Source: Rossellomorea aquimaris TF-12 (GTDB lineage Bacteria; Bacillota; Bacilli; Bacillales; Bacillaceae_B). From it: a stretch of DNA of 64,000 nucleotides. The notes under the pieces are model-generated. The model saw nothing but the letters and a program-made list of their open reading frames with translations, made no database searches and was not told the DNA's origin. Position numbers and translations under genes: made by a program. Of this stretch, positions 27,213 through 45,472 are shown piece by piece. Position 1 is the stretch's first letter; each line of letters begins with the position of its first letter. The stretch lies in contig NZ_LQXM01000026.1 in NCBI RefSeq assembly GCF_001648555.1, positions 1 through 64,000 of the forward strand. The letters run 5' to 3'.

Positions 27213-27223
27213 GAGGATGAACA

Positions 27224-28210: not shown

Positions 28211-28342
28211 TAAAATCAGGAACTTTATTTTAAAAAAGGATTTTTTTGTAAAATTTCTCTCCTACCTTAGAAAAGAAAATAGTAGTTGATTTCCTTTTAA
28301 GGAAGAGAAATTTGTTTTCTGTTATTCTTTTGCACCTTTTTA

Positions 28343-28459
28343 GCTCTGTCACGATAAATCTTTTAAAGGTGGTGAGGGGAACTTTGGAGGCTCGGTCGAA
28401 CGCTAGCTGCAAGCGGAATAGTTCCCCTCACCATCTAAGTACATACTAATTGACAGAGC
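28343..28459. repeat. complete GCTCTGTCA palindromic element, 117 bp
   Basis: The ends are GCTCTGTCA and TGACAGAGC. Inside are GGTGAGGGGAACT and AGTTCCCCTCACC, so the whole unit is a nested inverted repeat. The central part (GGAGGCTCGG) is shared in part with the copy at 35137. No reading frame is present. It resembles a miniature palindromic element rather than an insertion sequence. No clear target-site duplication is visible. Confidence 0.85.
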
Positions 28460-28550
28460 CTAGCAGGCTTTTGTTGAAAACATCATTTTTTACGAAAATA
28501 ACCTAATAAAAAAAAGAAAATTAAATAAAAATTAGATTTTTTAAAAAATT

Positions 28551-28591
28551 CTCACAATAATTTCACATTATGAAATTATTGTGAGTTTTTT
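28551..28591 (+). terminator. hairpin upstream of the catabolic operon (terminator or operator)
   Basis: CTCACAATAATTTC and GAAATTATTGTGAG form a perfect 14-base stem with a 6-7 base loop, followed by TTTTTTT. It could terminate read-through from lplJ. Its half-site ACAATAATT recurs in the palindrome in front of the IclR gene (30667-30683), so it may instead, or also, be a regulator-binding site. Confidence 0.7.
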
Positions 28592-28651
28592 TAGTTAGAA
28601 AGGTTTAGTATAGAGGTCAGATTAAGAAATAAGGAGGTGGCATTTAAGAAA

Positions 28652-29134
28652 ATGGATATACGTGATTTGCGAAACTGTTTTGGGAAATTTGCCACGGGAG
28701 TAACAGTCGTTTCATGGAAAGGTGAAAATAATCAAAATCATGGTATTACCGTTAATTCTTTTACTTCAGTTTCTTTAGATCCTCCACTAGTACTGGTATC
28801 TATTGATAAAAAAGCCAGGGCGAAAGAAAGAATGAAAGGAAAACCATTCGTAATTAATATTTTAGCAGCTGGTCAAGAAGCAGTTGCCTGGCAGTTTGCC
28901 GGAAAGGAACAGCAAGGTCTTCAAATTGAATGGAAAGACTCAGAATGTGGACCGATGATTAAGGGGTCTCTAGCCACATTAAATTGTAAGCCTTGGAAAG
29001 AATACGATGGGGGAGATCATGTTTTATTTATTGGTGAAGTAGAAGATTACCATTATGAAGAAGGTAATAGTTTAGTATTTTTTCAAGGAAAGTTTTTAGA
29101 AACCAACTCCATTGATAATTATGTGAAAAAGTAG
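28652..29134 (+). CDS. flavin reductase, small component of anthranilate 3-monooxygenase
   Basis: This 160-residue protein belongs to the HpaC/ActVB-type flavin reductase family, which reduces FAD or FMN with NAD(P)H and passes it to a partner oxygenase. Family motifs are FATGVTVVSW near the N-terminus, NSFTSVSLDPPLVLVSIDK and the C-terminal GDHVLFIGEVEDY. The GTG at 28637 lies on the AAGGAGGTGG site itself; ATG 28652 is the likelier start. It lies 18 bases before the large oxygenase gene, supporting a two-component system. Confidence 0.85.
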   Translation: MDIRDLRNCFGKFATGVTVVSWKGENNQNHGITVNSFTSVSLDPPLVLVSIDKKARAKERMKGKPFVINILAAGQEAVAWQFAGKEQQGLQIEWKDSECGPMIKGSLATLNCKPWKEYDGGDHVLFIGEVEDYHYEEGNSLVFFQGKFLETNSIDNYVKK

Positions 29135-29152
29135 GATTAAGGGGGAGAATAA

Positions 29153-30631
29153 ATGGCAATTCGTAATGGAGCACAGTATATATCGGGTTTGAAGGACCGT
29201 AAGCCAGAGGTTTGGTTAGGTGGGAAAAAAGTAGAGAATGTTTATGACGAAGAAGTATTCCGTCAGCCTATTCATGAAATCGCGAAACTCTATGACATTC
29301 AAAATGATCCTAAGTACAAAGAAGATATCACCTACATATGTGAAGAAACAGGTGAAAGATTCTCCCATGCTTTTAAAGTCCCAAAATCATATGAAGATTT
29401 AAAAGCAAGAAGTAAACTTTTTGAAGTTTGGGCAAGAGCTACTTTTGGTTTAATGGGTAGAACTCCAGATTTTTTAAATGTAACCATAACAGCCATGGCA
29501 AGCAATACGTGGTTCCTGGATCAATACAATCCAGAGTGGTCTAAGAACATGGTGAATTACTATGATTATATTAGAACGAATGACTTATTTTTAACCCATG
29601 CTATTATTAATCCTCAGAATGACCGTAGCAAATCCTCTCATGAGCAGCAAGATGAATTCACCCACTTAGGAGTTGTAGAAGAAAGACCTGATGGCTTTAT
29701 CGTTCGTGGAGCGAAAATGCTGGCGACTCTTGCACCGATTACAGATGAAGTCATTATATACTCCTTCCCGGGTTTTCAACCGGGTGATGAGAAACATGCC
29801 ATTGCATTTGCTCTTCCAATAGATACCCCAGGATTACGGATTATATGTAGAGAACCGATGCAAGATGGGAAACGATCAGTATTAGATCATCCACTCGCTT
29901 CGAGATATGAAGAAATGGATGCCTTATTGGTCTTCAATGATGTATTTGTTCCGAGTGAACGAATTTTTATTAATCAAAATATTGAAGCCGCTAATCTTTT
30001 ATACCCTAAAACGGGAATTGGACAACAGCCGGCACACCAATCAGGTGTTAGAGGCTTGGTGAAGCTGCAATTCGCTTCTGAGGTAGCTGCTAGAGTTGCA
30101 GATTCCATTGGGGTTGACGGTTATTTAAACGTTCAAACCCAGTTGGGAGAATTAATGCAGTCAGTTGAAGCCATAAGAGCTCTATTGAGAGTAGCAGAAT
30201 ATGAATACGAAACCACTGATTTAGGAGAGGTAAGACCGGCGGGCACACCACTTGAAACGATACGTGGAATGCTGCCTAAGTTATATCCTCGTGCCATTGA
30301 AGTGATGCAAACAGTTGGAGCTGGCGGACTATTAATGTCCCCGACCTTTGCCGATTTTGAAAATCCTGAACTTCGTGGAGATGCTGAAAAGTACTATGTA
30401 GGACGGAAAGGGATTTCATCACAAGAGCGTGTTCAGTTGTTTAAACTTGCATGGGATCTATGTGGAGAAGCCTTTGGTCAAAGGTTACTTCAATATGAAC
30501 GTTATTATTCTGGGGATCCATTAAGAAGGCTTGGGCGATTTTATGCAGGGTTTAAGAAACAGCATTCTTTTGACATGGTTGATGAAGCATTAAAGGGCTC
30601 AAAAGACTTAGAGCAACAACCTACCCCTTAA
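29153..30631 (+). CDS. FAD-dependent anthranilate 3-monooxygenase, HpaB family
   Basis: This 492-residue oxygenase is of the 4-hydroxyphenylacetate-3-hydroxylase (HpaB) family with acyl-CoA-dehydrogenase-like fold; typical motifs are [29 protein letters not shown] and [18 protein letters not shown] member of this family from Geobacillus thermodenitrificans is the established anthranilate 3-monooxygenase (EC 1.14.14.8). Here the downstream genes all process 3-hydroxyanthranilate and its products, so anthranilate is the best substrate (inference). No homoprotocatechuate-pathway gene is present, which argues against 4-hydroxyphenylacetate. AAGGGGGAG precedes ATG 29153. Confidence 0.82.
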
Positions 30632-30632
30632 A

Positions 30633-30646
30633 TGAAAGCGCTTTAT
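30633..30646. promoter_or_regulatory. candidate cre (CcpA) site
   Basis: TGAAAGCGCTTTAT matches the cre consensus TGWAANCGNTNWCA at 12 of 14 positions and is centred on the palindrome AAAGCGCTTT. It lies just after the monooxygenase stop codon and about 90 bases before the IclR gene. Catabolite repression of an aromatic pathway would be expected biology, but this is inferred from the motif. Confidence 0.5.
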
Positions 30647-30666
30647 TTATTAGTTGAAAAGAAGGG

Positions 30667-30683
30667 ATTGTAACAATAATTGT
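30667..30683. promoter_or_regulatory. overlapping palindromes before the IclR gene, candidate operator
   Basis: ATTGTAACAATAATTGT reads as two overlapping 11-base palindromes (ATTGT-A-ACAAT and ACAAT-A-ATTGT). The half-site ACAATAATT is also found in the hairpin at 28551-28584 before the first gene of the cluster. A shared site next to the regulator gene and in front of the operon is what an autoregulated IclR system would show. Confidence 0.45.
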
Positions 30684-30736
30684 CAAATCCTTAATGTGGT
30701 ACTGGTAATCAATCGTAGGATGAGGGGGATAAGGAA

Positions 30737-31489
30737 TTGATTTCTTCTGTAAAGAAAATTTCCAAAATTCTGAACTGTTTCACCAATGAAGAGCCTGCAT
30801 TAGGAAATAATGAAATTGCCGAAAAGCTTGGGATGAATGCGAGTACAGTGCATCACTTAGTCCGTTCATTATGTGAAGAGGGAATGTTAATACAGGACAG
30901 TCGAAAAAAATACCGGTTAGGATGGAAGCTCTTAGAATGGAGTAACCATGTTATGTATCAACAGGATATCTACAGTGAAGCAACGCCTTTTTGTGAAGGG
31001 TTAATTCGAAAATTTCAAGGTACAGTTCATATTGGAATGTTTGATTCAGGAGAAGTTCGATTTGTCTTAAAAGTAAAATCCAAAACATCTTTGCCTATTC
31101 CCACTTATGTTGGAGCCACTAAACCTGCCTACTGTACGAGTACAGGGAAGGTTTTATTGGCCAATAACCCTTCATTAATTAAACCTACGATTGCCAAAGG
31201 TCTATTACAACGTGCACCTAATACCATTACATGCGTATCAAAATTAAAGGAAGAGCTAAAACAAATAAAGATCCAAGGGTATGCCATTAGCAATAATGAA
31301 AATGAACTTGGCCTTTACGGAATAGCAGCCCCTATTCGTTCCTACAATGGTCAAACCATTGCGGCGCTAAATATGGTGGGGCCTATTTCATATATGGACG
31401 GAAGAAATCGAAATGAAATGATCAGAAGTGTCGTAAGTACAGCAGAAAATATCTCTAAGGACATTGGATATATTAGCAGTGTGTTGTAA
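30737..31489 (+). CDS. IclR family transcriptional regulator of the catabolic cluster
   Basis: This 250-residue regulator has an N-terminal winged helix (residues about 5-65, NEIAEKLGMNASTVHHLVRSLCEEG) and a C-terminal IclR effector domain. The domain carries the typical AYCTSTGKVLLA, GYAISNNENELGLYGIAAPI and the final MVGPIS region. Family members control aromatic-acid catabolism and bind pathway compounds. The start is a TTG at 30737 with GGGGGATAAGG upstream. It lies inside the cluster in the same direction. Anthranilate or 3-hydroxyanthranilate as effector is an inference. Confidence 0.85.
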   Translation: MISSVKKISKILNCFTNEEPALGNNEIAEKLGMNASTVHHLVRSLCEEGMLIQDSRKKYRLGWKLLEWSNHVMYQQDIYSEATPFCEGLIRKFQGTVHIGMFDSGEVRFVLKVKSKTSLPIPTYVGATKPAYCTSTGKVLLANNPSLIKPTIAKGLLQRAPNTITCVSKLKEELKQIKIQGYAISNNENELGLYGIAAPIRSYNGQTIAALNMVGPISYMDGRNRNEMIRSVVSTAENISKDIGYISSVL

Positions 31490-31516
31490 GGATATTAAAT
31501 TTTAGGAGGATGTAAT

Positions 31517-32068
31517 ATGACTACTCAATCAAAATCATTTTTAAAAACGAGAGTACTAGATTTATTTAAAACAATAGAAGATAACAAAGACTTACTAAAG
31601 CCACCAGTAAACAATAAAGTGCTTTGGGAAGACTCTGAGTTTATTGCAATGCTACTTGGTGGGCCGAATAAACGCCGAGATTTTCATGTGGATCCCTCAG
31701 ATGAATTTTTTTATCAAGTTAAAGGAAATGCCTATGTTGAATGTATTAATGAAGAAGGTAAGCGTGAAGTAGTGACAGTAGGCGAAGGGGAAATATTCAT
31801 GCTGCCGGCAAATGTACCTCACTCCCCACATAGAGTGGCAGATTCCTATGGAATTGTACTTGAAAGAAAAAGAAATCAGGGTGAATTAGAAAGCTTTGTT
31901 TGGTTCTGTGATAAATGTGACCATGAAATGCACAAAGCTACTGTTCAACTTACAAATATTGAAACACAAGTGAAAGAAGCGATAGAGCATTTTAATTCTA
32001 GTGAAGATTTGCGTATATGTGAAAATTGTGGTTATAAAATGCCTCCAGAAGCAGAGGAATGGAAATGA
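31517..32068 (+). CDS. nbaC: 3-hydroxyanthranilate 3,4-dioxygenase
   Basis: This 183-residue cupin dioxygenase opens the ring of 3-hydroxyanthranilate to 2-amino-3-carboxymuconate semialdehyde. The Fe2+ ligands are visible as His57 and Glu63 (RRDFHVDPSDEFFYQ) and His102 (VPHSPHR). A second, rubredoxin-like metal site near the C-terminus has Cys131/Cys134 (CDKC) and Cys168/Cys171 (CENC), as in other bacterial enzymes of this type. The start is ATG 31517 after AGGAGGATG. The stop overlaps the start of the decarboxylase gene (ATGA). Confidence 0.93.
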   Translation: MTTQSKSFLKTRVLDLFKTIEDNKDLLKPPVNNKVLWEDSEFIAMLLGGPNKRRDFHVDPSDEFFYQVKGNAYVECINEEGKREVVTVGEGEIFMLPANVPHSPHRVADSYGIVLERKRNQGELESFVWFCDKCDHEMHKATVQLTNIETQVKEAIEHFNSSEDLRICENCGYKMPPEAEEWK

Positions 32069-33114
32069 GAGTAGATTTTCATACACACATAATTCCAAAA
32101 GAATTACCGGATTTTGCTGAAAAATATGGAGGGAAGTGGCCAGTTCTTCATCAAACATGTGCGTGTGGTGCCAATATTATGGTGGAAGGTAAGGTATTTA
32201 GAGAGGTCACGGATCAAGTCTGGAGTCCTCAAAAGAGAATTCAAGACATGGATCGAGAAGGTGTCGATATTCAAGTGCTTTCACCTATTCCCGTGACATT
32301 TTCTTACTGGGCTGAAAAGGATGCTGCCCTTGAAATGGCAAAGATTCAAAATGACTTTATCTCTAAAACCGTCCAAGAATATCCTGCCCGTTTTGTAGGT
32401 TTAGGCACTGTTCCTATGCAGGATGCAGAAACGGCCATTAAAGAGATGGATCGTTGTATCCATGAGTTGAACTTATATGGAATTGAGATTGGAACGAATG
32501 TGAATGGCGAAAATTTAGACGCACCTGATTTTCTACCGTTTTTTGAGATGGCTGAAAAATGGAATGTTCCATTATTTATTCATCCATGGGAAACGCTGGC
32601 GAGAGACAGAACACCTCGTCATAATTTCATGTACACAATCGGAATGCCGAGTGAAACAGCTCTTGCTGCTGCCAGTCTTGTGTGGAGTGGAGTAATAGAG
32701 AAATTTCCAAATTTAAAGGTTTGTTTTGCACATGGTGGAGGCTCATTTCCTTACATTCTCCCAAGATTAGATCAAGGATGGAAGGTATGGCCACAATTGC
32801 GGTTAACAACTCACCCACCTAGCTACTATGTGAAAAACTTTTACTTTGATTCATTAAACTATGATTCATTAAATGTAAATTATTTAATCGATCGATTTGG
32901 CCATGAAAAAGTATTGATGGGTTCGGATTATCCTTTCTTATTAAGAGAGATTCCACCAGGTAAGGTAATAGACGGAATGGCTGACTTAACCTCTGTACAA
33001 AAGCGAATGATACTTGGTGAAAATGCTTTGAGATTCTTAAATATAAAGGAGTTTAGATCTGATGGAACCAAAACTAATGACGCCAGAGGAGAAACTTCAA
33101 AATCTGGGACTTAA
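32065..33114 (+). CDS. nbaD: aminocarboxymuconate-semialdehyde decarboxylase
   Basis: This metal-dependent amidohydrolase-fold decarboxylase of about 349 residues converts 2-amino-3-carboxymuconate semialdehyde to 2-aminomuconate semialdehyde. It prevents spontaneous cyclisation to quinolinate. The zinc motif HTH (MRVDFHTHIIP, His6 and His8), the later FAHGGGSFPYILPRLDQGW and the metal Asp in MGSDYPFLL are present. ATG 32065 forms an ATGA overlap with nbaC and is six or seven bases from AGAGG. The 3' end overlaps the next gene by 53 bases, so the last residues (FRSDGTKTNDARGETSKSGT) are an unusual hydrophilic tail. Confidence 0.92.
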   Translation: MRVDFHTHIIPKELPDFAEKYGGKWPVLHQTCACGANIMVEGKVFREVTDQVWSPQKRIQDMDREGVDIQVLSPIPVTFSYWAEKDAALEMAKIQNDFISKTVQEYPARFVGLGTVPMQDAETAIKEMDRCIHELNLYGIEIGTNVNGENLDAPDFLPFFEMAEKWNVPLFIHPWETLARDRTPRHNFMYTIGMPSETALAAASLVWSGVIEKFPNLKVCFAHGGGSFPYILPRLDQGWKVWPQLRLTTHPPSYYVKNFYFDSLNYDSLNVNYLIDRFGHEKVLMGSDYPFLLREIPPGKVIDGMADLTSVQKRMILGENALRFLNIKEFRSDGTKTNDARGETSKSGT

Positions 33115-33541
33115 CCTTTCACCTGTTCGCCCAGCGGTAGGAAACTACGTGAGCAGAGTTCGCGTAGGGAATTTAATTTTCACTTCAGGTCAAGGTGTAG
33201 ATGAATTCCATGGAAAGCTTGGTAGGGACTTAGATGTCGAGGAAGGCTACCTTGCCGCTCGTCAATCCATGGTGAATTTATTAAATGTTCTTAAGGCTGA
33301 AGTTGGGGAGCTTAGCCGAATTAAGAGGATTGTTAAAATCTTAGGTTTTGTTAACTCCACAGAAGATTTTATTGATCAGCCGAAAGTAATGAATGGTGCC
33401 TCTGATTTACTGGTAGAAGTGTTTGGAGATAGGGGTCGACATGCTCGCTCAGCCGTAGGGATGGCTCAATTACCTGGAGGAACAGCCATAGAAATAGAGA
33501 TGATCGTTGAACTAGAAGATCCATTAACTAAAGTAGAGTAA
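33062..33541 (+). CDS. nbaF: 2-aminomuconate deaminase, RidA/YjgF family
   Basis: This 159-residue RidA-fold protein hydrolyses the enamine/imine nitrogen of 2-aminomuconate to give 4-oxalocrotonate and ammonia. Family motifs are VGNLIFTSGQG near residue 37 and GRHARSAVGMAQLPGGTAIEIEMIVEL at the C-terminus, with the substrate-binding arginine. Its place between decarboxylase and dehydrogenase genes supports this role over generic RidA housekeeping. AAAGGAG lies ten bases before ATG 33062. A terminator-like hairpin follows directly. Confidence 0.88.
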   Translation: MEPKLMTPEEKLQNLGLNLSPVRPAVGNYVSRVRVGNLIFTSGQGVDEFHGKLGRDLDVEEGYLAARQSMVNLLNVLKAEVGELSRIKRIVKILGFVNSTEDFIDQPKVMNGASDLLVEVFGDRGRHARSAVGMAQLPGGTAIEIEMIVELEDPLTKVE

Positions 33542-33542
33542 C

Positions 33543-33575
33543 AAAAAAAGGTGGCGATTCTGTCACCTTTTTTCA
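33543..33575 (+). terminator. internal terminator or attenuator after nbaF
   Basis: AAAAAGGTG / CACCTTTTTT with a loop of about ten bases, ending in T-runs, sits between nbaF and nbaE. It would reduce transcription of the rest of the cluster, or the second part has its own promoter. Confidence 0.65.
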
Positions 33576-33613
33576 AAATAACAACTAGTGACTGTGAATA
33601 GGAGGTTCTTTCA

Positions 33614-35089
33614 TTGCAATTAAAAGAGAAGTCTAACCAAAAAGTCAGACCAATCGATTGTAGGCACTTCATTAATGGTGAATATAGAGATTCATACGAT
33701 TTGAAAACCTTTAACAATATGAACCCAGCAACAGAAGAAATTTTAGGAACAGTTGCCGAAGGTGGAAAAAGGGAAGTGGATGCGGCGGTAAAAGCAGCAA
33801 AGAAAGCTTTAGTTGGCCCATGGAAAACGTTTACTTCCAGTCAACGTTCCGCTGTTTTAAGAAGAATTGGTGATTTAATTCTTGAACGAAAAGAAGAGCT
33901 AGCTGTTCTAGAATCGATGGATACAGGAAAGCCGTATCAAATGTCACTTGAAATCGATATCCCAAGAGCAGCTTATAATTTTCATTTTTTTGCAGATTAC
34001 TTAACGTCGATGGGTACGGAAGCTTATCAACAAGATCAACAAGCTCTACATTATTCCATTCGTCGCCCAGTTGGAGTGGTAGGGATGATTAACCCATGGA
34101 ATCTACCATTGTTACTCCTTACTTGGAAAATGGCTCCATGTCTTGCTGCTGGAAATACTGCAGTAATGAAGCCGGCAGAATGGACTCCAATGACTGCGAC
34201 AGTGCTGGCAGAAATATGTAAAGATGCAGGAGTTCCAGACGGAGTAGTCAATCTAGTACATGGATTTGGGCCAGGTTCAGCTGGAGCTGCCATTACGGAA
34301 CACCCTGACGTAGATGCCGTTACGTTTACTGGTGAAACAAAAACAGGAACAGCGATCATGAAAGCTGCTGCTCCTACCTTAAAGAAATTATCATACGAGC
34401 TAGGCGGGAAAAACCCTAATATTATCTTTGCGGATTCCGATTTAGATGAAGTGATCGAGACCACATTGAAATCAAGTTTTATGAATCAAGGTGAAGTTTG
34501 TTTATGTGGTTCGCGAATTTATGTGGAAAGCCCTGTTTACGAAAATTTCATAGAAAAATTCACCGCAAAAACGAGAGAACTTAAAGTGGGAAATCCCTTT
34601 AATAGTGATACAAATGTTGGAGCAGTAATCAGTAAAGAACACTATGATCGAGTGTTAGGTTACATACAGTCAGCAAGAGATGAAGGAGGAACTGTACTGA
34701 CTGGAGGGGAGAGACAAACAGCTGAAGATAAAGGATATTTCATCATGCCTACGATTGTCGTGGGACTTGATCGAAATGCTAAATGTGTCCGAGAAGAAAT
34801 TTTTGGCCCTGTTGTGACTGTACTTCCTTTTGACACTGAGGAGGAAGTAATCGAACAAGCAAATGATACACATTACGGATTAGGAACAACCATTTGGACG
34901 AATGATTTACGAAAGGCACATCGAGTCGCTCACCAAATAGAAGCAGGAATTATTTGGGTTAACACCTGGTACTTACGTGATCTCCGCACTCCTTTTGGAG
35001 GGATGAAGCAAAGTGGGATTGGTAGAGAAGGTGGAATGCACAGCTTTGAGTTTTATAGTGAACTATCAAATATCACCATCAAGTTATAA
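33614..35089 (+). CDS. nbaE: 2-aminomuconate-semialdehyde dehydrogenase
   Basis: This 491-residue NAD-dependent aldehyde dehydrogenase oxidises 2-aminomuconate semialdehyde to 2-aminomuconate. The catalytic Cys296 (NQGEVCLCG, with a second Cys298) and Glu262 (YELGGKNPN) are present, as are the NAD-binding GFGPGSAGAAI turn and the C-terminal PFGGMKQSGIGREGG motif. The NQGEVCLCGSR context is typical of the 2-hydroxymuconate/2-aminomuconate semialdehyde group. The TTG start at 33614 has AGGAGG upstream. A 550-base gap with two repeats follows. Confidence 0.9.
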   Translation: MQLKEKSNQKVRPIDCRHFINGEYRDSYDLKTFNNMNPATEEILGTVAEGGKREVDAAVKAAKKALVGPWKTFTSSQRSAVLRRIGDLILERKEELAVLESMDTGKPYQMSLEIDIPRAAYNFHFFADYLTSMGTEAYQQDQQALHYSIRRPVGVVGMINPWNLPLLLLTWKMAPCLAAGNTAVMKPAEWTPMTATVLAEICKDAGVPDGVVNLVHGFGPGSAGAAITEHPDVDAVTFTGETKTGTAIMKAAAPTLKKLSYELGGKNPNIIFADSDLDEVIETTLKSSFMNQGEVCLCGSRIYVESPVYENFIEKFTAKTRELKVGNPFNSDTNVGAVISKEHYDRVLGYIQSARDEGGTVLTGGERQTAEDKGYFIMPTIVVGLDRNAKCVREEIFGPVVTVLPFDTEEEVIEQANDTHYGLGTTIWTNDLRKAHRVAHQIEAGIIWVNTWYLRDLRTPFGGMKQSGIGREGGMHSFEFYSELSNITIKL

Positions 35090-35136
35090 AGCTCTTTTCT
35101 CAAAGATTGTTGTTTTATACATGAGTCTGTTAAATG

Positions 35137-35302
35137 GCTCTGTCAACCAATGTGTGCTGGATGGTGAGGGGAACTACTTCGCTTTCCGAGGATGTTCGGC
35201 CGAGCCTCCTCAGCTTCGCTTCCGGGGTCTCGTCACGCCCATACTTCCGCAGAAGTCTACGCAGTTCCCCTCACCATCTATAAGAGGTTTAAGTGACAGA
35301 GC
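35137..35302. repeat. complete GCTCTGTCA palindromic element, 166 bp
   Basis: The ends are GCTCTGTCA and TGACAGAGC, with internal GGTGAGGGGAACT and AGTTCCCCTCACC. The centre is about 50 bases longer than in the copy at 28343 and contains CCGAGG/CCTCAG-type arms. It has the same nested inverted-repeat layout, with no reading frame of its own. Confidence 0.88.
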
Positions 35303-35444
35303 TTTATTGTGACAAAAAGTAAATCGAAAGAAGCTGTCATTCTATAATACAAGTTATATTGACCACTACACATATTATAAAATGCTGTTTTTCAAGCATA
35401 TATGGTATTTATATCAGTCTGTATCAGAAACTCAGCCTTTGAAA

Positions 35445-35570
35445 GTTGATTGGAGCGGAAGGTGCTCGACTCCTGTGGGAATAGCGAGAAAGTTGAGACC
35501 CCACAAGGCAAAGCCCGAGGAGGCTCAACTCACGCCCCAAGGAAAGCGAGCACCTGGAGCGGAAATCAAC
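35445..35570. repeat. GGAGCGGAAG dispersed repeat, best-preserved copy, 126 bp
   Basis: The outer arms GTTGATT / AATCAAC and inner arms GGTGCTCG / CGAGCACC enclose GACTCCTGTGGGAA, GAGACCCCACA and GCCCGAGGAGGCTCA. The flank to about 35610 (CGTAAACTTTGTGGC read on the minus strand) recurs at 20652 and 55852. Elements of this kind are common between genes in Bacillus-related genomes (from memory). No protein is encoded. Confidence 0.85.
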
Positions 35571-35643
35571 TTCTACTCGCTTTATCTATTCAATAGCCAC
35601 AAAGTTTACGAAAACAGCCAATTATAAAAAGGAGGGTTAAGTA

Positions 35644-36441
35644 ATGTTTGAACCTACCATGACGAAAGAGATTAAGAGTCTTTCAAGTCATTTAATGGAA
35701 GCAGAAAAAAAGAAACATGGAGTGAAACCAATAACTGAATTGAAGCCCTCAATCTCTATTCAGGAAGCTTACCATGTTCAATTGGAAACCATCACCCAAA
35801 AAGTTGAAAATGGTGCAACCATCATAGGGAAAAAAATAGGGTTAACATCCATTGCTATGCAGGAGCTACTCGGGGTTGATGAGCCAGATTACGGACATCT
35901 TCTTGATGGAATGGCAGTAGAAAATAATGGAGCTGTTAAAGGAAATCAAGTCCTTCAACCAAGGGTAGAGGGTGAAATCGCCTTTGTTTTAAAAAAAGAA
36001 TTAAAAGGACCTGATGTAACAGTAGAAGACGTATTAGAGGCGACAGATTACGTGTTACCCGCCTTAGAAATTGTGGATAGTAGAATACTCGATTGGAAGA
36101 TCAAATTACAAGATACGATTGCAGATAACGCGTCCTCTGGTTTGTTTGTCTTAGGTGATCATCCAGTATCAATTAATGAAGTGAACTTAAAAGAAGTTCA
36201 GGTGAAGCTATTTCGAAATGGAGAGTTGATGAATACTGGAAAGGGATCTGCTGCACTTGGCGACCCTGCCTATTGTGTAGCTTGGTTAGCTAATAAACTG
36301 GCTGACTATGATCTGTCTCTTGAGCCTGGTGAAGTCATTTTATCAGGAGCCTTATCAGCAGCCGTATTTGCCCATCCCGGAGATGAATTTTCAGCTGATT
36401 TCGATTGGTTTGGGAAAGTTTCCTGCACGTTTGCAAGGTAA
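35644..36441 (+). CDS. nbaG: 2-oxopent-4-enoate hydratase
   Basis: This 265-residue enzyme of the hydratase/decarboxylase (fumarylacetoacetate-hydrolase-like) family adds water to 2-oxopent-4-enoate, giving 4-hydroxy-2-oxovalerate. Visible motifs are GKKIGLTSIAMQELLGVDEPDYG, RVEGEIAFVLKKEL (metal-binding Glu residues) and ALEIVDSRI...DNASSGLFVLG. It is a paralogue of the decarboxylase at 38406. Its leading position in the lower-pathway block and resemblance to DmpE/NbaG decide the assignment. AAAGGAGGG precedes ATG 35644. Confidence 0.85.
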   Translation: MFEPTMTKEIKSLSSHLMEAEKKKHGVKPITELKPSISIQEAYHVQLETITQKVENGATIIGKKIGLTSIAMQELLGVDEPDYGHLLDGMAVENNGAVKGNQVLQPRVEGEIAFVLKKELKGPDVTVEDVLEATDYVLPALEIVDSRILDWKIKLQDTIADNASSGLFVLGDHPVSINEVNLKEVQVKLFRNGELMNTGKGSAALGDPAYCVAWLANKLADYDLSLEPGEVILSGALSAAVFAHPGDEFSADFDWFGKVSCTFAR

Positions 36442-36459
36442 GGAAGGGAGGATGCATGA

Positions 36460-37335
36460 ATGAAAATGAAAGCTGCTATTATTGGTTCAGGGAATATAGG
36501 AACCGATTTAATGAAAAAAATGCTTCATTCTGAGGTTTTAGACTTAACCACAATGATTGGAATTGACCCAAATTCAGAGGGATTAAAGATGGCTAAGGAA
36601 CATGGCCTTCATACGATTTCTAATGGGATAGAAGGATTTATAGAAAATCCAGATTTAGCTGATATTCTTTATGATGCAACTTCTGCAAAAGCACATATTA
36701 ATCATTCTGAAATTGTAAAAAAGCTTGGGAAAAAAATGATTGATCTTACTCCTGCTGCCATAGGACCTTTTGTTGTTCCTCCAGTAAATTTAAGCGAGCA
36801 CTTGCAAGAACTTAATGTAAATATGATTACTTGTGGAGGGCAGGCAACCATACCTATTGTTCACAGTGTAAATCAAGTAGCCCAAGTAGAATACGCAGAA
36901 ATAGTAGCCACTATTTCTAGTAGAAGTGCCGGACCAGGTACACGGGCCAACATAGACGAATTCACCGTGACAACAGCAAAAGGGCTTGAAGTGATCGGTG
37001 GAGCTAAAAGAGGTAAGGCTATTATCATTCTCAATCCGGCTGAACCACCCATTTTAATGAGGGATACTATTTATTGTCTTGTTAATGGAAAAGTCGACAA
37101 AGAAGCAATTACTCAATCTATAAAGAAAATGGTTAGTAAAGTGAAGGAATATGTTCCAGGATATCGTCTGCGGACTGACCCTATTATTGAAGACAATAAG
37201 GTGACAGTTTTTGTTGAGGTGGAGGGTTCTGGAGACTACCTGCCAAGCTATGCTGGTAATTTGGATATTATGACTGCTTCAGCTCTAAAAGTAGGAGAAG
37301 AAATGGCAAAACATTCAATAGCACAGCAAGCATAG
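36460..37335 (+). CDS. nbaJ: acetaldehyde dehydrogenase (acylating)
   Basis: This 291-residue NAD- and CoA-dependent enzyme oxidises acetaldehyde from the aldolase to acetyl-CoA. The nucleotide-binding [16 protein letters not shown], catalytic Cys in [11 protein letters not shown] and [17 protein letters not shown] are characteristic of the DmpF/NbaJ/BphJ family. This enzyme channels acetaldehyde from its aldolase partner (next gene, 33 bases downstream). GGGAGG precedes ATG 36460. Confidence 0.93.
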
Positions 37336-37374
37336 GAATACTGATGGTATTCATTAAGAGAAAGGAGAATGAGG

Positions 37375-38406
37375 GTGAAACATCCGGATGTTACTATCAC
37401 TGAGGTAGCTTTAAGGGATGGCAGCCATGCTATTGGTCACAATTATACAGTCGAGCAAGTAGAGGCTGTGGCGAAAGCATTGGATAATGCGGGCGTTCCC
37501 TATATTGAAGTTTCGCATGGAGATGGGCTCGGAGGATCGTCTCTACAATACGGACTCTCTAAAACCAATGAATTCGACTTAATATCAGCAGCTGTTTCTG
37601 TATGTACACAAGCTAGAATCGGAGTCCTGCTTATACCCGGAATAGGCACAGTTGCAGAGTTAATGTTAGCTGAAGATGCAGGGGCAAGGCTGGCCAGAAT
37701 AGCCACCCATGTAACAGAAGCAGATGTATCAAAACAACACATTCAAAAAGCAAAAGAATTAGGAATGGAAACAGTGGGTTTCTTAATGATGGCTCATATG
37801 GCTCCGGTAGAAAAGTTAGTACAGCAAGCAAAATTAATGGAAAGCTACGGTGCTGATACCATTTATATTGTGGATTCAGCTGGAGCACTGCTCCCACATG
37901 AAGTAAGGGAAAGAGTGAGAGCTTTAAAACAGAATCTACAATCCCATGTGGGATTTCATGCCCATAATAATCTTTCATTAGCTATGGCTAATACACTTGT
38001 GGCCATTGAAGAAGGAGCGACTAGAGTTGATGGCAGCGTCAGATGCCTGGGGGCAGGTGCTGGTAATACTCAAACGGAAGTGCTTGTTTCCATTCTTGAT
38101 CGTATGAACATATCCACTTGTATCGATCCATATAAAATGATGGATTTGGCAGAAGAGATTGTGGCCCCCATTTTAGAGAAGCCACAGGAAATCACAAGAG
38201 GAAGTTTAATTCTTGGGTATGCTGGAGTGTATTCAAGCTTTTTGCTCCATGCCCAAAGAGCGGCTGATAAATTTAATGTCGATTCAAGAGACATCTTAGT
38301 TGAATTAGGTAAAAGAGGTGTCGTTGGAGGACAAGAAGACATGATTATTGATGTTGCTTATGAATTATCGAACAGAGCTACATCAGTGTTGAAAGGGGTT
38401 AAATAA
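37375..38406 (+). CDS. nbaI: 4-hydroxy-2-oxovalerate aldolase
   Basis: This metal-dependent TIM-barrel aldolase of about 343 residues splits 4-hydroxy-2-oxovalerate to pyruvate and acetaldehyde. Motifs are ALRDGSHAIGHNYT (catalytic Arg/Asp/His), VGFHAHNNLSLAMANT (metal-binding His pair) and GSVRCLGAGAGNTQTE. GTG 37375 is preferred because AAAGGAG is seven bases upstream; ATG 37369 lies too close to that site. The stop codon overlaps the next start (TAATG). It forms a channelling complex with the preceding dehydrogenase in relatives. Confidence 0.92.
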   Translation: MKHPDVTITEVALRDGSHAIGHNYTVEQVEAVAKALDNAGVPYIEVSHGDGLGGSSLQYGLSKTNEFDLISAAVSVCTQARIGVLLIPGIGTVAELMLAEDAGARLARIATHVTEADVSKQHIQKAKELGMETVGFLMMAHMAPVEKLVQQAKLMESYGADTIYIVDSAGALLPHEVRERVRALKQNLQSHVGFHAHNNLSLAMANTLVAIEEGATRVDGSVRCLGAGAGNTQTEVLVSILDRMNISTCIDPYKMMDLAEEIVAPILEKPQEITRGSLILGYAGVYSSFLLHAQRAADKFNVDSRDILVELGKRGVVGGQEDMIIDVAYELSNRATSVLKGVK

Positions 38407-39206
38407 TGGAGACAAAAACTCAAAGCCTAAAGCAAATAGCTGAAAATATTGATTTTCACCAAACGAAAGGGATTGAAATGGATAAGCTTACGATTGCTTA
38501 TCCAAACTTGAGCGTAAGGGATGCCTATGAAATTCAGGAACTATGGGAGCAATGTGCCAAGAAGCGCGAAGATAATAAAATCGGATGGAAAATGGGCTTG
38601 ACGAGTATTGCAAAACAAAAATCGGTTGGAGTAAACGAACCGATTTATGGAAGACTGACAAATTCAATGGAAGTGAAGGGGAATACTCTTTCTTTAAAAG
38701 GATTGATCCATCCAAGGGTTGAACCGGAAGTTGCATTTGTCATGAAAAAAGACTTAAAGGGAAAGAATTTGACTCCTCGAGATGTATGGAGTGCTACTGA
38801 GTTTATTATGCCGGCAGTTGAAGTAATTGATAGTCGTTATAAGAATTTTTCTTTTACACTTGTTGACGTTGTAGCAGATAATGCCTCTTCTTCCCGATTT
38901 ATTCTTAGTAATCAAGCTTTCTCCCCTTTTCACTCACCAATGGATAGCTTAGAAGTTTCTATGTATCGGAACGGAGAAAAGGTTCAATCCGGCTTAGGAT
39001 CAGCAGTCTTAGGACACCCGGTAAAATCGATTATCAAATTAGCAGAAATGTTGGATAGAGACGGTTTGGGAATCGAAGCAGGGATGGTCGTTTTAACAGG
39101 AGGAATGACGGAAGCCATTAATATTTATGACGGAGATACCGTAAAAGTTGAATTTGGTCCCCTGGGTTCGATTAGCTTTAATGCAAGTAACGGAAAGGAT
39201 GAGTAA
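38406..39206 (+). CDS. nbaH: 4-oxalocrotonate decarboxylase
   Basis: This 266-residue enzyme is of the same family as nbaG, catalysing decarboxylation of 4-oxalocrotonate to 2-oxopent-4-enoate. Motifs are GWKMGLTSIAKQKSVGVNEPIYG, RVEPEVAFVMKKDL and AVEVIDSRYKNFSFTLVDVVADNASSSRF. The YKNFSF insert and resemblance to DmpH/NbaH separate it from the hydratase. In relatives the two form a complex. AAAGGGG precedes ATG 38406, which overlaps the aldolase stop. Confidence 0.87.
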   Translation: METKTQSLKQIAENIDFHQTKGIEMDKLTIAYPNLSVRDAYEIQELWEQCAKKREDNKIGWKMGLTSIAKQKSVGVNEPIYGRLTNSMEVKGNTLSLKGLIHPRVEPEVAFVMKKDLKGKNLTPRDVWSATEFIMPAVEVIDSRYKNFSFTLVDVVADNASSSRFILSNQAFSPFHSPMDSLEVSMYRNGEKVQSGLGSAVLGHPVKSIIKLAEMLDRDGLGIEAGMVVLTGGMTEAINIYDGDTVKVEFGPLGSISFNASNGKDE

Positions 39207-39208
39207 GA

Positions 39209-39403
39209 GTGCCTATCACTCATCTTCATATCATTGAAGGAAGAAGTGCAGAAGTAAAACAAAGGCTTATGGAAACGATTACTCATTCTATATGCGAATG
39301 CTTAGGAACCAGTCCTGAACAAGTACGGGTTTTAATTCACGAGGTTCCAAAAGAGAATTGGGGTGTCGGTGGTGCGCCTAAAGAACATATATTGGATCGT
39401 TAA
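39209..39403 (+). CDS. 4-oxalocrotonate tautomerase
   Basis: This 64-residue protein has the catalytic Pro right after the initiator Met (MPITHLHIIEGRS) and Arg residues at the positions used by 4-OT (RSAEVKQRL, VRVLIHEVP). It interconverts 2-hydroxymuconate and 4-oxalocrotonate (2-oxo-3-hexenedioate). The start is GTG 39209, two bases after the decarboxylase stop, with AAAGGATGAG upstream. It would supply the correct tautomer to nbaH. Confidence 0.9.
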   Translation: MPITHLHIIEGRSAEVKQRLMETITHSICECLGTSPEQVRVLIHEVPKENWGVGGAPKEHILDR

Positions 39404-39421
39404 TAAATAGGAGGTGCTTTG

Positions 39422-39958
39422 GTGGAAAGACTTCATAGTCAGTCATTTGAATGGCCCCAATCCATCGTTACAATCGGTGCATTTGATGGTGTACACAAAG
39501 GACATCAGTCGGTGATAACTTACGCTGTTAATGAAAGTAGGAAAAAAGGAATTCCCTGTTTAGTGTATACGTTTGACCCGCCTCCAAGAGCCTATTTTAA
39601 CGGAGTGAAAATGCTAACAACCTTAGAAGAAAAGCTTGTTCGTATAGAGGCTCTTGGTGTTGATTACATTAAAGTTGCCAACTTCAACGAAGAATTCCTA
39701 AAACAAACTTCAGCTCAGTTCATTCAAACTCTGAGAAACTTCAAACCTATGGAGATTTTTGTAGGTAATGAATTTAGGTTTGGAAATGGTCGAGAAGGAA
39801 ATGTTGATACACTGAAGAAGCTATTCAAGGTCACTACATTGGAACCTGTCTGTTGTGAGGAGGGTGTAGTGATTTCCTCAACTAGAATAAGAGAGCTTGT
39901 GGAGCAGGGCAAAGATTTCGAAGCTAGTAATTTATTAGGCTTGCATTTTCAAATGTAA
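39422..39958 (+). CDS. stand-alone FAD synthetase domain (RibF N-terminal domain only)
   Basis: This 178-residue protein equals the FMN-adenylyltransferase half of bifunctional RibF. The nucleotidyltransferase motif GAFDGVHKGH is at residues 19-28 and the C-terminal SSTRIRELVEQG motif near 152-163. The riboflavin kinase domain of about 130 residues is absent. The ORF ends cleanly with a normal stop, so this is a single-domain protein rather than a visible frameshift. GTG 39422 follows AGGAGG by seven bases. A dedicated FAD supply for the flavin-dependent monooxygenase is the likely reason for its presence (inference). Confidence 0.8.
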   Translation: MERLHSQSFEWPQSIVTIGAFDGVHKGHQSVITYAVNESRKKGIPCLVYTFDPPPRAYFNGVKMLTTLEEKLVRIEALGVDYIKVANFNEEFLKQTSAQFIQTLRNFKPMEIFVGNEFRFGNGREGNVDTLKKLFKVTTLEPVCCEEGVVISSTRIRELVEQGKDFEASNLLGLHFQM

Positions 39959-40017
39959 GGAAGGCTAACAACCTTCTAAAATTGAAGAGTTTTACTAATG
40001 ATAAGGGGGAAATGAAA

Positions 40018-41043
40018 TTGAAAACAATGAAAAAGTGGGGTTTATCATTCTTAAGCTTGGTCCTTGTAATTGGTGTTCTAGTTGCTTGTGGATCTGGAGA
40101 AACCAAGACCAGTAGTGGAACAGAAGGAGACTCAGAAAAAACGTATAACTTTAAGTTGGCTCATATTACACCACCAACTCATATGTGGCACAAAGGGGCA
40201 GAAAAATTCAAAGAAGAGCTTGAAAAAAGATCAGAAGGTCGCATGAAATTAGAAATTTACCCTTCAAGTCAATTAGGAACAGAAGCCGATATGGTAGAAC
40301 AAATTGCTGCGGGATCTGTTGACTTCGGTTTAATAACTGCGGCTTATATGAGTTCAAGAGAACCTTCCTTCGCAGCCTGGTTTACCCCTTACGCTTTTGA
40401 GGATTTAAATGCAGCAAATGATGCAAGAGATTCTGAAGTGGCTAAAAAGATTCTTGATACCATCGATAAACAAGGATTGGTAGGTCTTGACTATTTATTC
40501 GCCGGGCAACGGGTAATGTTGTTTAAAGATAAAGAAGTGAAGGGTCCTTCAGATATGGAAGGGTTAAAATTACGTGTAACTCCAAGTCCTCCAATGCAGG
40601 ATTTTTACCAATTCTCAGGTGCTTCTACCGAGGGGCTTCCACTTCCTGAAGTTTATTCAGCCGTTCAAACGGGTGTTATTGATGGAATGGATATGGACTT
40701 AGATGCTGCGATTACAAACAAGTATCATGAAGTAGTGAAATACGGGGCTGTCACTAATCATATGGTTTGGCCAGCCGTTGCGATGATGAATAAAAAGACA
40801 TTTGAAGGTATGTCTGAAGAAGATCAAAAAATCATTCGTGAATCCATGGCAGCAGCAGCAGACTTCGCAGCTACAACAAGAGCAGGACAAGAAGAAGAGT
40901 TTAGACAAACGCTAAAGGACGAAGGAATGACCATTTATGAATTGGATGCTGATGTATTTAGCGAACAAATGAATAAGTTTGATGAAAAATATGGTCCTAC
41001 TGATCCACTTATTCAAGAGTTTATTGATACCTTCCGAAAGTAA
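40018..41043 (+). CDS. dctP: TRAP transporter solute-binding lipoprotein, DctP family
   Basis: This 342-residue extracytoplasmic solute-binding protein has a lipoprotein signal peptide (hydrophobic LSFLSLVLVIGVLVAC, lipobox LVAC) and a DctP fold. Family motifs are AHITPPTHMWHKGAEKFKEEL, LRVTPSPPMQDF (with the carboxylate-binding Arg) and GVIDGMDMDLDA. TTG 40018 is spaced seven bases from AAGGGGG; ATG 40012 is too close. Although the family is named for dicarboxylates, members bind many organic and aromatic acids. Its place at the end of this cluster suggests anthranilate or a related acid. Confidence 0.85.
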   Translation: MKTMKKWGLSFLSLVLVIGVLVACGSGETKTSSGTEGDSEKTYNFKLAHITPPTHMWHKGAEKFKEELEKRSEGRMKLEIYPSSQLGTEADMVEQIAAGSVDFGLITAAYMSSREPSFAAWFTPYAFEDLNAANDARDSEVAKKILDTIDKQGLVGLDYLFAGQRVMLFKDKEVKGPSDMEGLKLRVTPSPPMQDFYQFSGASTEGLPLPEVYSAVQTGVIDGMDMDLDAAITNKYHEVVKYGAVTNHMVWPAVAMMNKKTFEGMSEEDQKIIRESMAAAADFAATTRAGQEEEFRQTLKDEGMTIYELDADVFSEQMNKFDEKYGPTDPLIQEFIDTFRK

Positions 41044-41069
41044 TAGATTAGCATAGGGGGTCAAAGATT

Positions 41070-41549
41070 ATGAAGGCGATAAGTAACGGCATTTCATCTA
41101 TAGAAAAAATACTGTCAATCATACTAATGTTTTCGATGGCCGTTATCGTAACGTTAGCAGTTGGTTTTCGTTATATTCTTAATTCTCCATTGTCTTGGGC
41201 TGGAGAAGTATCTATTTTTCTTCTCATATGGATTAGTTTTATTGGAGGGAGCTTGGGGCTGAAATATAAGTCCCAAGCCTCTGTTACCATACTTCTCGAA
41301 TATGTATCTACTAAAATGAAAAGAATAATTCTTATTTTAGGGCATATCATTATGCTCGTTTTTCTCGTTCTACTGATCTATTACAGCGTGATGTGGATTT
41401 TATCACCTAGTGTAGGGTATCAAAAATCAACTGCCATGCTCATTCCTATGTGGATACCTTATTTAGCCGTGCCACTCGGACTAACCTTTGCAAGTATACA
41501 TGTGTTATCAAACCTCCTTGATTTTGTGAAAAAGGAGGGAACAGAATGA
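41070..41549 (+). CDS. dctQ: TRAP transporter small membrane subunit, DctQ family
   Basis: This 159-residue protein has four hydrophobic segments and the family motif SWAGEVSIFLLIWISFIGGSLGLKYKSQ. DctQ forms the membrane complex with DctM for sodium- or proton-driven uptake of the DctP-bound solute. AGGGGG precedes ATG 41070. Its stop overlaps the dctM start (ATGA), which implies coupled translation. Confidence 0.9.
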   Translation: MKAISNGISSIEKILSIILMFSMAVIVTLAVGFRYILNSPLSWAGEVSIFLLIWISFIGGSLGLKYKSQASVTILLEYVSTKMKRIILILGHIIMLVFLVLLIYYSVMWILSPSVGYQKSTAMLIPMWIPYLAVPLGLTFASIHVLSNLLDFVKKEGTE

Positions 41550-42826
41550 CGATAATAGTAGTGATTTGCTTTTTCTTGCTTTTATTTATGGCTGTTCCCA
41601 TATCATTAGTATTAGGAATTACAACGATTTTGTATTTTTTTATTGTTGGGAATACGGCACTCTTACCGTCTACACCAATGAGACTCTATTCCGGACTGGA
41701 CAATTTCGGGTTATTAGCAATCCCATTATTTATGCTTGCTGGAGAGTTGATGAATGGCGGGGGAATCACCACTAGATTAGTAAAATTCGCAAGAGTGTTA
41801 ATTGGTCATGTTCGTGGAGGATTAGCTTATGTGACAGTAATAGCAAATATGTTTTTAGCCTCTATTTTGGGGTCGGCAAATGCTCAAGCAGCAATGATGA
41901 GCAAAGTAATGGTCCCTGAAATGGAAAAGGAGGGATACGATAGGGAGTTTTCCTCAGCTTTGACGTTGGCCTCTTCTATCGTAGCTCCAATCATTCCTCC
42001 AAGTATGATTTTTATCATATATGGAACCCTTTCTGGAACCTCCATTGGCGGTTTATTTATGGCGGGTATTATTCCTGGAATTATGTATGGTATTGGTTTT
42101 ATAAGCTTAATCGCTTTTCTTGGCTATAAATATAATTTTAAAAAATCCACTAGGGCATCAGGTAAAGAAATGATGACTAGTTTTCTAAGTGTCTTGCCAG
42201 CCTTATTGGTTCCATTTATTATTATCTTTGGAATATTAAGTGGGGCCTTTACAGCAACGGAGTCAGCAGCGGTTGCATCTGCTGTGGCTTTCATTGTAGG
42301 AATGATCTTTTACAAAGAATTAAAGTGGAAGAAGATCCCTGGAATCTTAGTGAATACTGTTACGTCAACAGCAACCGTTACCTTTTTAATTGCTATGGCA
42401 AATATTTTCGGGTGGATGATTGCATTCGAACAAATTCCACAAGCAATCGTCACACAAATGACTTCCCTCTCGAGTAATCCATTTGTTTTTCTTTTATTGG
42501 TGAATATATTATTGCTATTACTCGGTGCTGTACTTGATGGTATCGCTGCTTTAATTATTTTAGTACCAGTTTTTATGCCACTTATTACTGCCTTTCACAT
42601 TGATCCAATTCATTTTGGTGTTATCATTTGTATTAATCTTACAATTGGACTCCTCACACCGCCAGTCGGTACCGGGCTGTTCATTGTCTCATCCATTGCA
42701 GAAGTCAGGTTTGAAAGATTAGTAAGAGCTACGTTGCCATTTCTTGTGATGGGTATATTCATTTTGTTCATTATCACCTACTGGGAAGGTGCTGTAATGT
42801 GGATTCCTAATAAACTTGGACTTTAG
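41546..42826 (+). CDS. dctM: TRAP transporter large membrane subunit, DctM family
   Basis: This 426-residue permease has about 12 hydrophobic segments. Conserved DctM motifs are FMLAGELMNGGGI, ANAQAAMMSKVMVPEMEKEGYDREFSSALTLASSIVAPIIPPSM and NLTIGLLTPPVGTGLF. AAGGAGGG precedes the ATG. It is the last gene of the catabolic cluster and is followed by a strong terminator. Confidence 0.93.
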   Translation: MTIIVVICFFLLLFMAVPISLVLGITTILYFFIVGNTALLPSTPMRLYSGLDNFGLLAIPLFMLAGELMNGGGITTRLVKFARVLIGHVRGGLAYVTVIANMFLASILGSANAQAAMMSKVMVPEMEKEGYDREFSSALTLASSIVAPIIPPSMIFIIYGTLSGTSIGGLFMAGIIPGIMYGIGFISLIAFLGYKYNFKKSTRASGKEMMTSFLSVLPALLVPFIIIFGILSGAFTATESAAVASAVAFIVGMIFYKELKWKKIPGILVNTVTSTATVTFLIAMANIFGWMIAFEQIPQAIVTQMTSLSSNPFVFLLLVNILLLLLGAVLDGIAALIILVPVFMPLITAFHIDPIHFGVIICINLTIGLLTPPVGTGLFIVSSIAEVRFERLVRATLPFLVMGIFILFIITYWEGAVMWIPNKLGL

Positions 42827-42835
42827 GGTTCAAGT

Positions 42836-42874
42836 AAAACCAGTTTCCTTACTAATAGGAGGCTGGTTTTTTTA
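42836..42874 (+). terminator. terminator at the end of the catabolic island
   Basis: AAAACCAGTTTCCT / AGGAGGCTGGTTTT (one mismatch) is followed by TTTTTTT just after the dctM stop. Confidence 0.88.
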
Positions 42875-42973
42875 TAGTCAATATATCCCATATAAAATAT
42901 AGAACTAAATATTTATGTACCTTAATGAATTATTATTCTATCATTTAACTATTACATAATTTGGAGGTATAAA

Positions 42974-45376: not shown

Positions 45377-45387
45377 GATGTAAAAGA

Positions 45388-45425
45388 GAAAGGCTGCCCT
45401 GCAGAGGAGGGCAGCCTTTTATTTA
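45388..45425 (+). terminator. terminator of the M14 peptidase gene
   Basis: AAAGGCTGCCCT / AGGGCAGCCTTTT with a GCAGAGG loop is followed by ATTTAT. Confidence 0.88.
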
Positions 45426-45472
45426 TGTAGGAGATTGAATAGATTAGAATCATTATTATTATTCACAGTCAA

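Follow-up and report, generated by a model that had tools for sequence, protein, structure and literature searches.

A predicted anthranilate catabolism unit with a candidate IclR operator in Rossellomorea aquimaris and other Bacillales

Gene content and predicted pathway

The window analysed here is a stretch of 64,000 nucleotides from Rossellomorea aquimaris TF-12 (positions 1 to 64,000 of contig NZ_LQXM01000026.1). Open reading frames and family searches revealed a block of 16 co-directional genes on its + strand (28637-42826). A preliminary description, made from the sequence alone, had counted 15 or 16 such genes and placed them between lplJ and lcfB; both points were borne out, and an M14 peptidase gene (42974-45376) likewise lies in between. 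The block encodes, in order, a flavin reductase, an HpaB-type oxygenase, an IclR-family regulator, 3-hydroxyanthranilate 3,4-dioxygenase (3-HAO), 2-amino-3-carboxymuconate 6-semialdehyde decarboxylase (ACMSD), a RidA-type protein, 2-aminomuconate 6-semialdehyde dehydrogenase (AMSDH), a hydratase, an acylating acetaldehyde dehydrogenase, an aldolase, an oxalocrotonate decarboxylase, a tautomerase, a FAD synthetase, and the TRAP transporter proteins DctP, DctQ and DctM (Table 1). We give a probability of about 0.87 to the reading that this block forms a full anthranilate-degrading unit, operon-like in layout and of the same type as the one reported from Geobacillus thermodenitrificans.

The series of steps from anthranilate to pyruvate and acetyl-CoA is an established pathway. 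Judged by family matches, which cover every step, a gene is present for each of them, in agreement with the complete route to central metabolism claimed in the preliminary description. The reductase matched Flavin_Reduct (PF01613; 6e-36), indicating a separate flavin reductase in the cluster, and the oxygenase matched HpaB_N (PF11794; 8e-97) and PF03241 (6e-54). The 3-HAO model TIGR03037 gave 240.5 bits (cut-off 145.95), and the nearest solved relatives of this gene product were 3-HAO entries. Those of the amidohydrolase were ACMSD entries (1e-94), and the top seven for the aldehyde dehydrogenase were all 2-aminomuconate semialdehyde dehydrogenases. Models TIGR03215 (463.1 bits, cut-off 282.25) and TIGR03217 (524.7, cut-off 286) were also matched.

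The association of these genes extends beyond the window. Scanning named genomes gave 199 relatives with the oxygenase, of which the best 80 loci were analysed. 3-HAO was found in 72 of the 80, ACMSD in 72, RidA in 71, and an AMSDH-type gene in 72, a count that may include other aldehyde dehydrogenases. By hand count, 3-HAO, ACMSD and the AMSDH-type gene occur together at 69 of the 80 loci.

Some relatives have other arrangements. Bacillus sp. FJAT-14578 and Priestia abyssalis have two oxygenase clusters each (L114, L115, L116, L117). In both genomes, the IclR, 3-HAO and TRAP genes accompany the oxygenase in the first cluster; the second has IclR, the FAD synthetase and genes for later steps, and 3-HAO was not found there. 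The pathway may be divided between two places in these genomes. Clade oxygenases from Brevibacillus, Paenibacillus and Neobacillus (L149, L176, L184, L186) have no 3-HAO or ACMSD in the available DNA; L176 ends soon after the oxygenase gene, and the genome of L184 has a full cluster at L126. The two Brevibacillus cases may reflect another use of the oxygenase or a scattered pathway.

Table 1. Features of the block and its edges (window positions).
Feature	Position	Strand	Basis
Palindrome ATTTCA-N5-TGAAAT, predicted IclR operator	28560..28576	none	conservation across clusters
Flavin reductase (PF01613), oxygenase partner	28637..29134	+	profile match
HpaB-type oxygenase, predicted anthranilate 3-monooxygenase	29153..30631	+	profiles, below HpaB-1 cut-off; pocket residues
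IclR-family regulator	30737..31489	+	profile match
3-HAO	31517..32068	+	profiles, solved relatives
ACMSD	32059..33114	+	profile, solved relatives
RidA/YjgF-type protein, predicted 2-aminomuconate deaminase	33062..33541	+	family; step inferred from position and pathway
AMSDH	33614..35089	+	profiles, solved relatives
Dispersed repeat, ends GCTCTGTCA/TGACAGAGC	35134..35306	none	outside the system
Second dispersed repeat family, 159 bases	35430..35588	none	outside the system
2-Oxopent-4-enoate hydratase	35644..36441	+	profile, below equivalog cut-off
Acylating acetaldehyde dehydrogenase	36460..37335	+	profile match
4-Hydroxy-2-oxovalerate aldolase	37369..38406	+	profile match
4-Oxalocrotonate (2-oxo-3-hexenedioate) decarboxylase	38406..39206	+	profile, below equivalog cut-off
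4-Oxalocrotonate tautomerase type, 64 amino acids, GTG start, Pro at position 2	39209..39403	+	family match
Single-domain FAD synthetase, 179 amino acids, FMN adenylyltransferase half of RibF only	39419..39958	+	family match
TRAP solute-binding protein DctP, predicted anthranilate receptor	39982..41043	+	family match, solved relatives
TRAP small permease DctQ	41070..41549	+	family match
TRAP large permease DctM	41546..42826	+	family match
Terminator-like hairpin, 14 pairs, possible transcription-unit end	42836..42870	+	hairpin scan

The first gene has a mechanical GTG start at 28637; the preliminary description had begun the block at 28652, which is an ATG further along in that frame. The tautomerase frame is below the length limit of the open reading frame list; it was placed by eye and its family then confirmed by profile search. 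The hairpin scan gave 14 terminator-like sites against 10.3 expected, so the hairpin behind dctM is by itself weak evidence. Rfam at gathering scores gave no match within 27000-46000. The assembly is 99.92% complete, with an estimated contamination of 9.56%.

Candidate operator, transporter and FAD synthetase

Clusters at the lplJ site have TTTCACATTATGAAA in common, upstream of the first gene. Of the 47 clusters with an IclR gene, 45 are preceded by the palindrome TTTCA-N5-TGAAA; none of the 34 clusters that lack IclR has it there. In these 81 regions (the window and the 80 named loci), the scan covered 350 bases ahead of the first gene's start (reductase or oxygenase; 300 bases in the window) and 60 bases past it. 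The overall rate in the 80 loci was 63 occurrences in 1.63 million bases, the copies just counted among them. TTTCA-N5-TGAAA ranked first of the 9 x 1024 palindromes compared (5-base arms, gaps of 0-8); second was a shifted form of it (43/47), and the next one reached 14/47. The matches span 10 genus labels, and the two IclR-bearing clusters without the palindrome come from Cytobacillus and Alteribacter. The palindrome was first spotted in the window and its sister clusters, and these are therefore not independent support.

Transporter genes stand behind the same palindrome. Seven Fictibacillus loci, in which the IclR and TRAP genes come first, have a further copy ~120-130 bases ahead of the IclR gene. 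A copy also starts 26 bases ahead of the dctP frame in two sister clusters (L108, L109). The strict 17-mer occurs three times in the R. aquimaris genome; the block copy is the only one outside long frames. TTTCA-N5-TGAAA was absent from the fetched stretches around the kynureninase and tryptophan 2,3-dioxygenase (TDO) genes. Given this conservation, the palindrome is probably the operator of the IclR protein. In the diverged clusters L043, L166, L167, L168 and L171, the IclR gene and the palindrome near the oxygenase are both absent. L043 has two Crp/Fnr-type regulator genes just upstream, which may substitute for IclR.

The three last genes of the block matched the TRAP families DctP, DctQ and DctM. 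dctP was present in at least 36 of the 80 named loci, a lower bound because many loci stop before that position. By sequence, the top solved relative of DctP was Ruegeria pomeroyi SPO1773 (4paf, 4pai, 4pbh; E 4.5e-52), whose ligands are presumably benzoates; the next one scored 5.6e-38. From these comparisons, the TRAP transporter is a likely importer of anthranilate. A structure model of DctP was too weak to use (mean predicted local distance difference test score, pLDDT, 59.1) except for the titles of its PDB matches, which are truncated ahead of a ligand name.

The FAD synthetase matched FAD_syn (PF06574; 1e-40), indicating an FMN adenylyltransferase in the cluster. Its 179 amino acids match the N-terminal half of RibF models only; the riboflavin kinase half is missing. 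The gene was found in 38 of the 80 named loci and is always short (173-226 amino acids), with one case split into 106 and 89 amino acids. In Neobacillus pocheonensis (L131, 11507-12054) the FAD synthetase lies in two overlapping frames. Among 40 FAD synthetase frames, the window's included, 38 have a GxFDGxHxGH-type motif and 39 an ISSTxIR-type motif, which we take to be nucleotidyl-transfer motifs; the window's protein has both. Among the titles and abstract openings listed in searches of open-licence literature, none describes the operator or an anthranilate TRAP transporter.

Occurrence and history of the block

lplJ is present in all 36 genomes of the genus. The block follows it in 4 of them (R. 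aquimaris TF-12, G010, G013 and G017; in G010 and G017 the fetched stretch stops before lcfB), is not there in 31, and a contig end falls at the place in 1. The preliminary description had proposed comparing this interval among relatives, where presence in all of them would mark the block as an ancestral feature of the site; they do not all carry it there. lplJ and lcfB are 150-193 bases apart in 15 congeners, have an M14 peptidase gene between them in 10 (one shortened), and in 6 are separated by other lengths without block genes. The M14 carboxypeptidase gene of the window encodes 800 amino acids; it is variably present in the interval and looks shortened in G029. Because this gene comes and goes, the interval evidently gains and loses genes often. 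Elsewhere in the genome, the block occurs in G002 and G019, adjoining a chromate transporter gene in the latter, and a diverged version occurs in G001, G004, G005 and G022. In G005 an FMN_red-type protein is encoded between the FAD synthetase and 3-HAO, and G001, G004 and G022 have a frame of similar size there, judged by size only. A second layout among relatives has the order oxygenase, FAD synthetase, reductase.

Presence in 4 congeners and absence in 31, copies at other places, and repeats close to the left edge could point to a recently acquired mobile island between lplJ and lcfB. We regard this explanation as unlikely on the evidence that follows. In a tree built from lplJ and the gene upstream of it, the R. 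aquimaris genome fell outside the clade of the other three carriers, and grouping the four carriers as one clade was rejected (p-AU, from the approximately unbiased test, 6e-6). On this tree, occupancy of the site required 4 changes and presence of any block version 9. Two genes make a weak species tree, and synonymous differences of ~0.7 are near saturation. Between the R. aquimaris genome and the other three carriers, such differences were 0.49-0.77 in the block; the pair of genes flanking it upstream gave 0.69-0.75, and lcfB gave 0.70 for carriers with lcfB sequence. The corresponding values for block and flanking genes were 0.19-0.45 and 0.29-0.42 between G002 and G019, and 0.10-0.33 and 0.25-0.36 between G017 and both G013 and G010. 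The block, with a divergence close to that of its flanks, is thus either old at the lplJ site or the product of an ancient exchange. Long-standing presence followed by repeated loss, or such an exchange, explains the pattern better than a recent insertion, which is unlikely. There was perhaps a later exchange among G010, G013 and G017. The insertion into a conserved backbone proposed in the preliminary description is doubtful in its simple form, since the carriers form no clade on the two-gene tree and block and flanks have diverged to about the same extent.

The repeats noticed earlier at the left edge and inside the block are real, but they belong to dispersed families and do not mark an island. 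The 171-base repeat (35130-35300) had 44 genomic matches, and 47 were obtained for the 159-base repeat (40 candidate places scored for each). The first family also includes the left-edge copy (~28340-28460), to judge from its ends and its inverted matches. In three sister clusters, the equivalent intervals leave no room for the repeats (164-165 bases against 427 here, and ~16 against 554 here), which are therefore most likely later arrivals than the block. No tRNA was found in the window, no integrase or transposase family was matched by the 16 genes, and base composition did not shift at the block. An integrated mobile element was accordingly rejected, as its hallmarks were all lacking: an integrase or transposase gene, a target tRNA, direct repeats at the flanks and an odd base composition. 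Plasmid carriage was also rejected; 260 plasmid records matched the oxygenase, every best place at <60% identity.

Substrate of the oxygenase and source of anthranilate

Liu et al. reportedly described, in 2010, anthranilate degradation via 3-hydroxyanthranilate in Geobacillus thermodenitrificans NG80-2. The NG80-2 tags 3158, 3159 and 3160 are presumably the reductase, the FAD gene and the oxygenase, an order nearer to the second layout of the relatives than to that of the window. As in the NG80-2 route, 3-HAO and meta-cleavage enzymes would lead here to acetyl-CoA, three of them scoring under equivalog cut-offs. The accessible parts of PMC4539516, PMC5698749 and PMC10816480 credit NG80-2 with an anthranilate pathway via 3-hydroxyanthranilate. 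The first two describe, in those parts, an HpaB-type FAD-dependent anthranilate hydroxylase (GTNG_3160) clustered with a FAD reductase and a FAD-making gene, and meta-cleavage, all of which resemble the block; GTNG_3160 is stated to have been shown to hydroxylate anthranilate to 3-hydroxyanthranilate (PMC5698749). The Geobacillus FAD gene is described in an excerpt of PMC4539516 as a riboflavin kinase/FMN adenylyltransferase, whereas the gene here has one adenylyltransferase domain. The unit here also contains an IclR gene and a TRAP transporter; the comparison with NG80-2 covers published descriptions. The pathway itself is thus already known from NG80-2; the additions here are a predicted operator, a likely importer, an active-site signature and patchy inheritance. 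Pseudomonas-type kynurenine and 2-nitrobenzoate meta-cleavage pathways comprise 3-HAO, ACMSD, AMSDH, a deaminase and the lower meta pathway. Unlike them, the unit here would be entered by a flavin monooxygenase acting on anthranilate.

The oxygenase forms a clade: it had >=71% identity in 16 of 101 relatives (the R. aquimaris genome counted), and all other full-length matches were at <=41%. It shares its family and the two-component scheme with HpaB/HpaC 4-hydroxyphenylacetate 3-monooxygenase. It did not, however, exceed the cut-off of the HpaB-1 model (TIGR02309; 432.6 against 480.2 bits). Pocket residues were aligned to Thermus HpaB in 96 clade rows (the window, 15 further genome loci and the 80 named loci, with at least 11 contigs represented by two rows). 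The clade retains Arg100 and His142. Tyr104 is replaced by Phe in 96/96 rows and is Tyr in 14/14 paralogue rows; Ser197-Thr198 is replaced by Phe-Pro in 96/96, the paralogues having Ser in 9/14, Thr in 9/14 and Pro in 5/14. According to the available portion of PMC10537072, Tyr104 of HpaB binds the phenol hydroxyl and Ser197-Thr198 hold the carboxyl group. Because these residues are replaced across the clade, the pocket argues against 4-hydroxyphenylacetate, and it would fit a substrate without that phenol. A structure model of the oxygenase (mean pLDDT 49.4) was too weak and was discarded.

The replaced residues speak against one substrate without identifying the actual one, and the accessible text of PMC10537072 and PMC10816480 describes HpaB-family enzymes as broad in substrate. 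The main substrate could then be another aminated or hydroxylated benzoate, such as a substituted anthranilate, with anthranilate secondary. We consider this very unlikely, given the joint presence of 3-HAO, ACMSD and AMSDH-type genes at most of the 80 loci.

The preliminary description had noted the lack of a kynureninase and had taken anthranilate, rather than kynurenine, as the entry. None of the 16 genes of the block matched kynureninase, as stated there; the genome does have one (418.5 bits, cut-off 246.4), adjoining an arylformamidase gene (250, cut-off 223.05), and a TDO gene (421.7 bits, cut-off 390.7) lies on the same contig as the window. Because these genes are present elsewhere in the genome, the absence from the block is no argument for the entry point, and anthranilate as the block's entry is supported. 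In a sample of 397 genomes of the order, the oxygenase clade (E 1e-150 or better) was found in 63. Kynureninase occurred in 60 of these 63 and in 181 of the 334 without the oxygenase (Fisher p 3e-11); the latter count was obtained by subtraction from 241/397, taken as the same genome draw, and related genomes are not independent. The three genes and this co-occurrence point to tryptophan as a probable further, intracellular source of anthranilate. The same observations, and the lack of a clear kynurenine 3-monooxygenase in the genome (one full-length PF01494 protein of no clear assignment was found), could mean that the oxygenase acts on kynurenine in place of that enzyme, with kynureninase then yielding 3-hydroxyanthranilate and the route branching before anthranilate, but this is highly improbable in view of the frequent TRAP genes in the unit, the 3 of 67 oxygenase-bearing genomes without kynureninase over the cut-off, and the anthranilate hydroxylation credited to the Geobacillus HpaB-type enzyme in parts of PMC4539516 and PMC5698749.

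Several observations weigh against a complete, regulated anthranilate unit. AMSDH, the hydratase and the decarboxylase scored under their equivalog cut-offs (TIGR03216, TIGR03220, TIGR03218), and their exact identities therefore lean partly on context. 3-HAO was missing from the available DNA in 8 of the 80 loci; several of these are truncated by contig ends, and two are in genomes whose second cluster has 3-HAO. Within the genus, kynureninase exceeded the cut-off in 33 of 36 genomes and TDO in 32 of 36, and kynureninase did not discriminate between genomes with the oxygenase (10/10) and without it (23/26). In this strain the palindrome sits inside a terminator-like hairpin (28551-28585), and a consensus scan of the + strand from lplJ to the start of the block gave no sigma-70-like match. 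No Geobacillus record is among the best 80 loci, and the likeness to GTNG_3160 is one of published description. GTNG_3160 (UniProt A4IT51) also stands in a review's table of 4-hydroxyphenylacetate hydroxylases, in the accessible part of PMC10816480.

Under the preferred reading, that of an anthranilate catabolism unit, the TRAP transporter would take up anthranilate, and TDO, arylformamidase and kynureninase, whose genes are present, would supply it in the cell from tryptophan. The dedicated FMN adenylyltransferase would make FAD, and the reductase would feed reduced FAD to the HpaB-type oxygenase, which, by analogy with the Geobacillus enzyme and from its conserved neighbours, would convert anthranilate to 3-hydroxyanthranilate. 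Ring opening by 3-HAO, decarboxylation by ACMSD, oxidation by AMSDH and deamination by the RidA-type protein would follow. The tautomerase, decarboxylase, hydratase and aldolase would then yield pyruvate and acetaldehyde, and acetaldehyde would be converted to acetyl-CoA. The IclR protein would control the unit through ATTTCA-N5-TGAAAT. The unit itself appears to be old and patchily retained in Bacillales chromosomes rather than a recent mobile island.

These findings suggest that a pathway described in one Geobacillus strain is a patchy but widespread Bacillales unit, and they give its oxygenase clade an active-site signature. We see even odds for a wider proposal, that of a Bacillales anthranilate regulon in which IclR acts via ATTTCA-N5-TGAAAT, an anthranilate TRAP transporter and a stand-alone FMN adenylyltransferase for a two-component monooxygenase are kept or lost as a block, and the block is tied to genomes that make anthranilate from tryptophan. 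If the unit works as predicted, bacteria whose tryptophan degradation would otherwise end at anthranilate could carry it through to completion.

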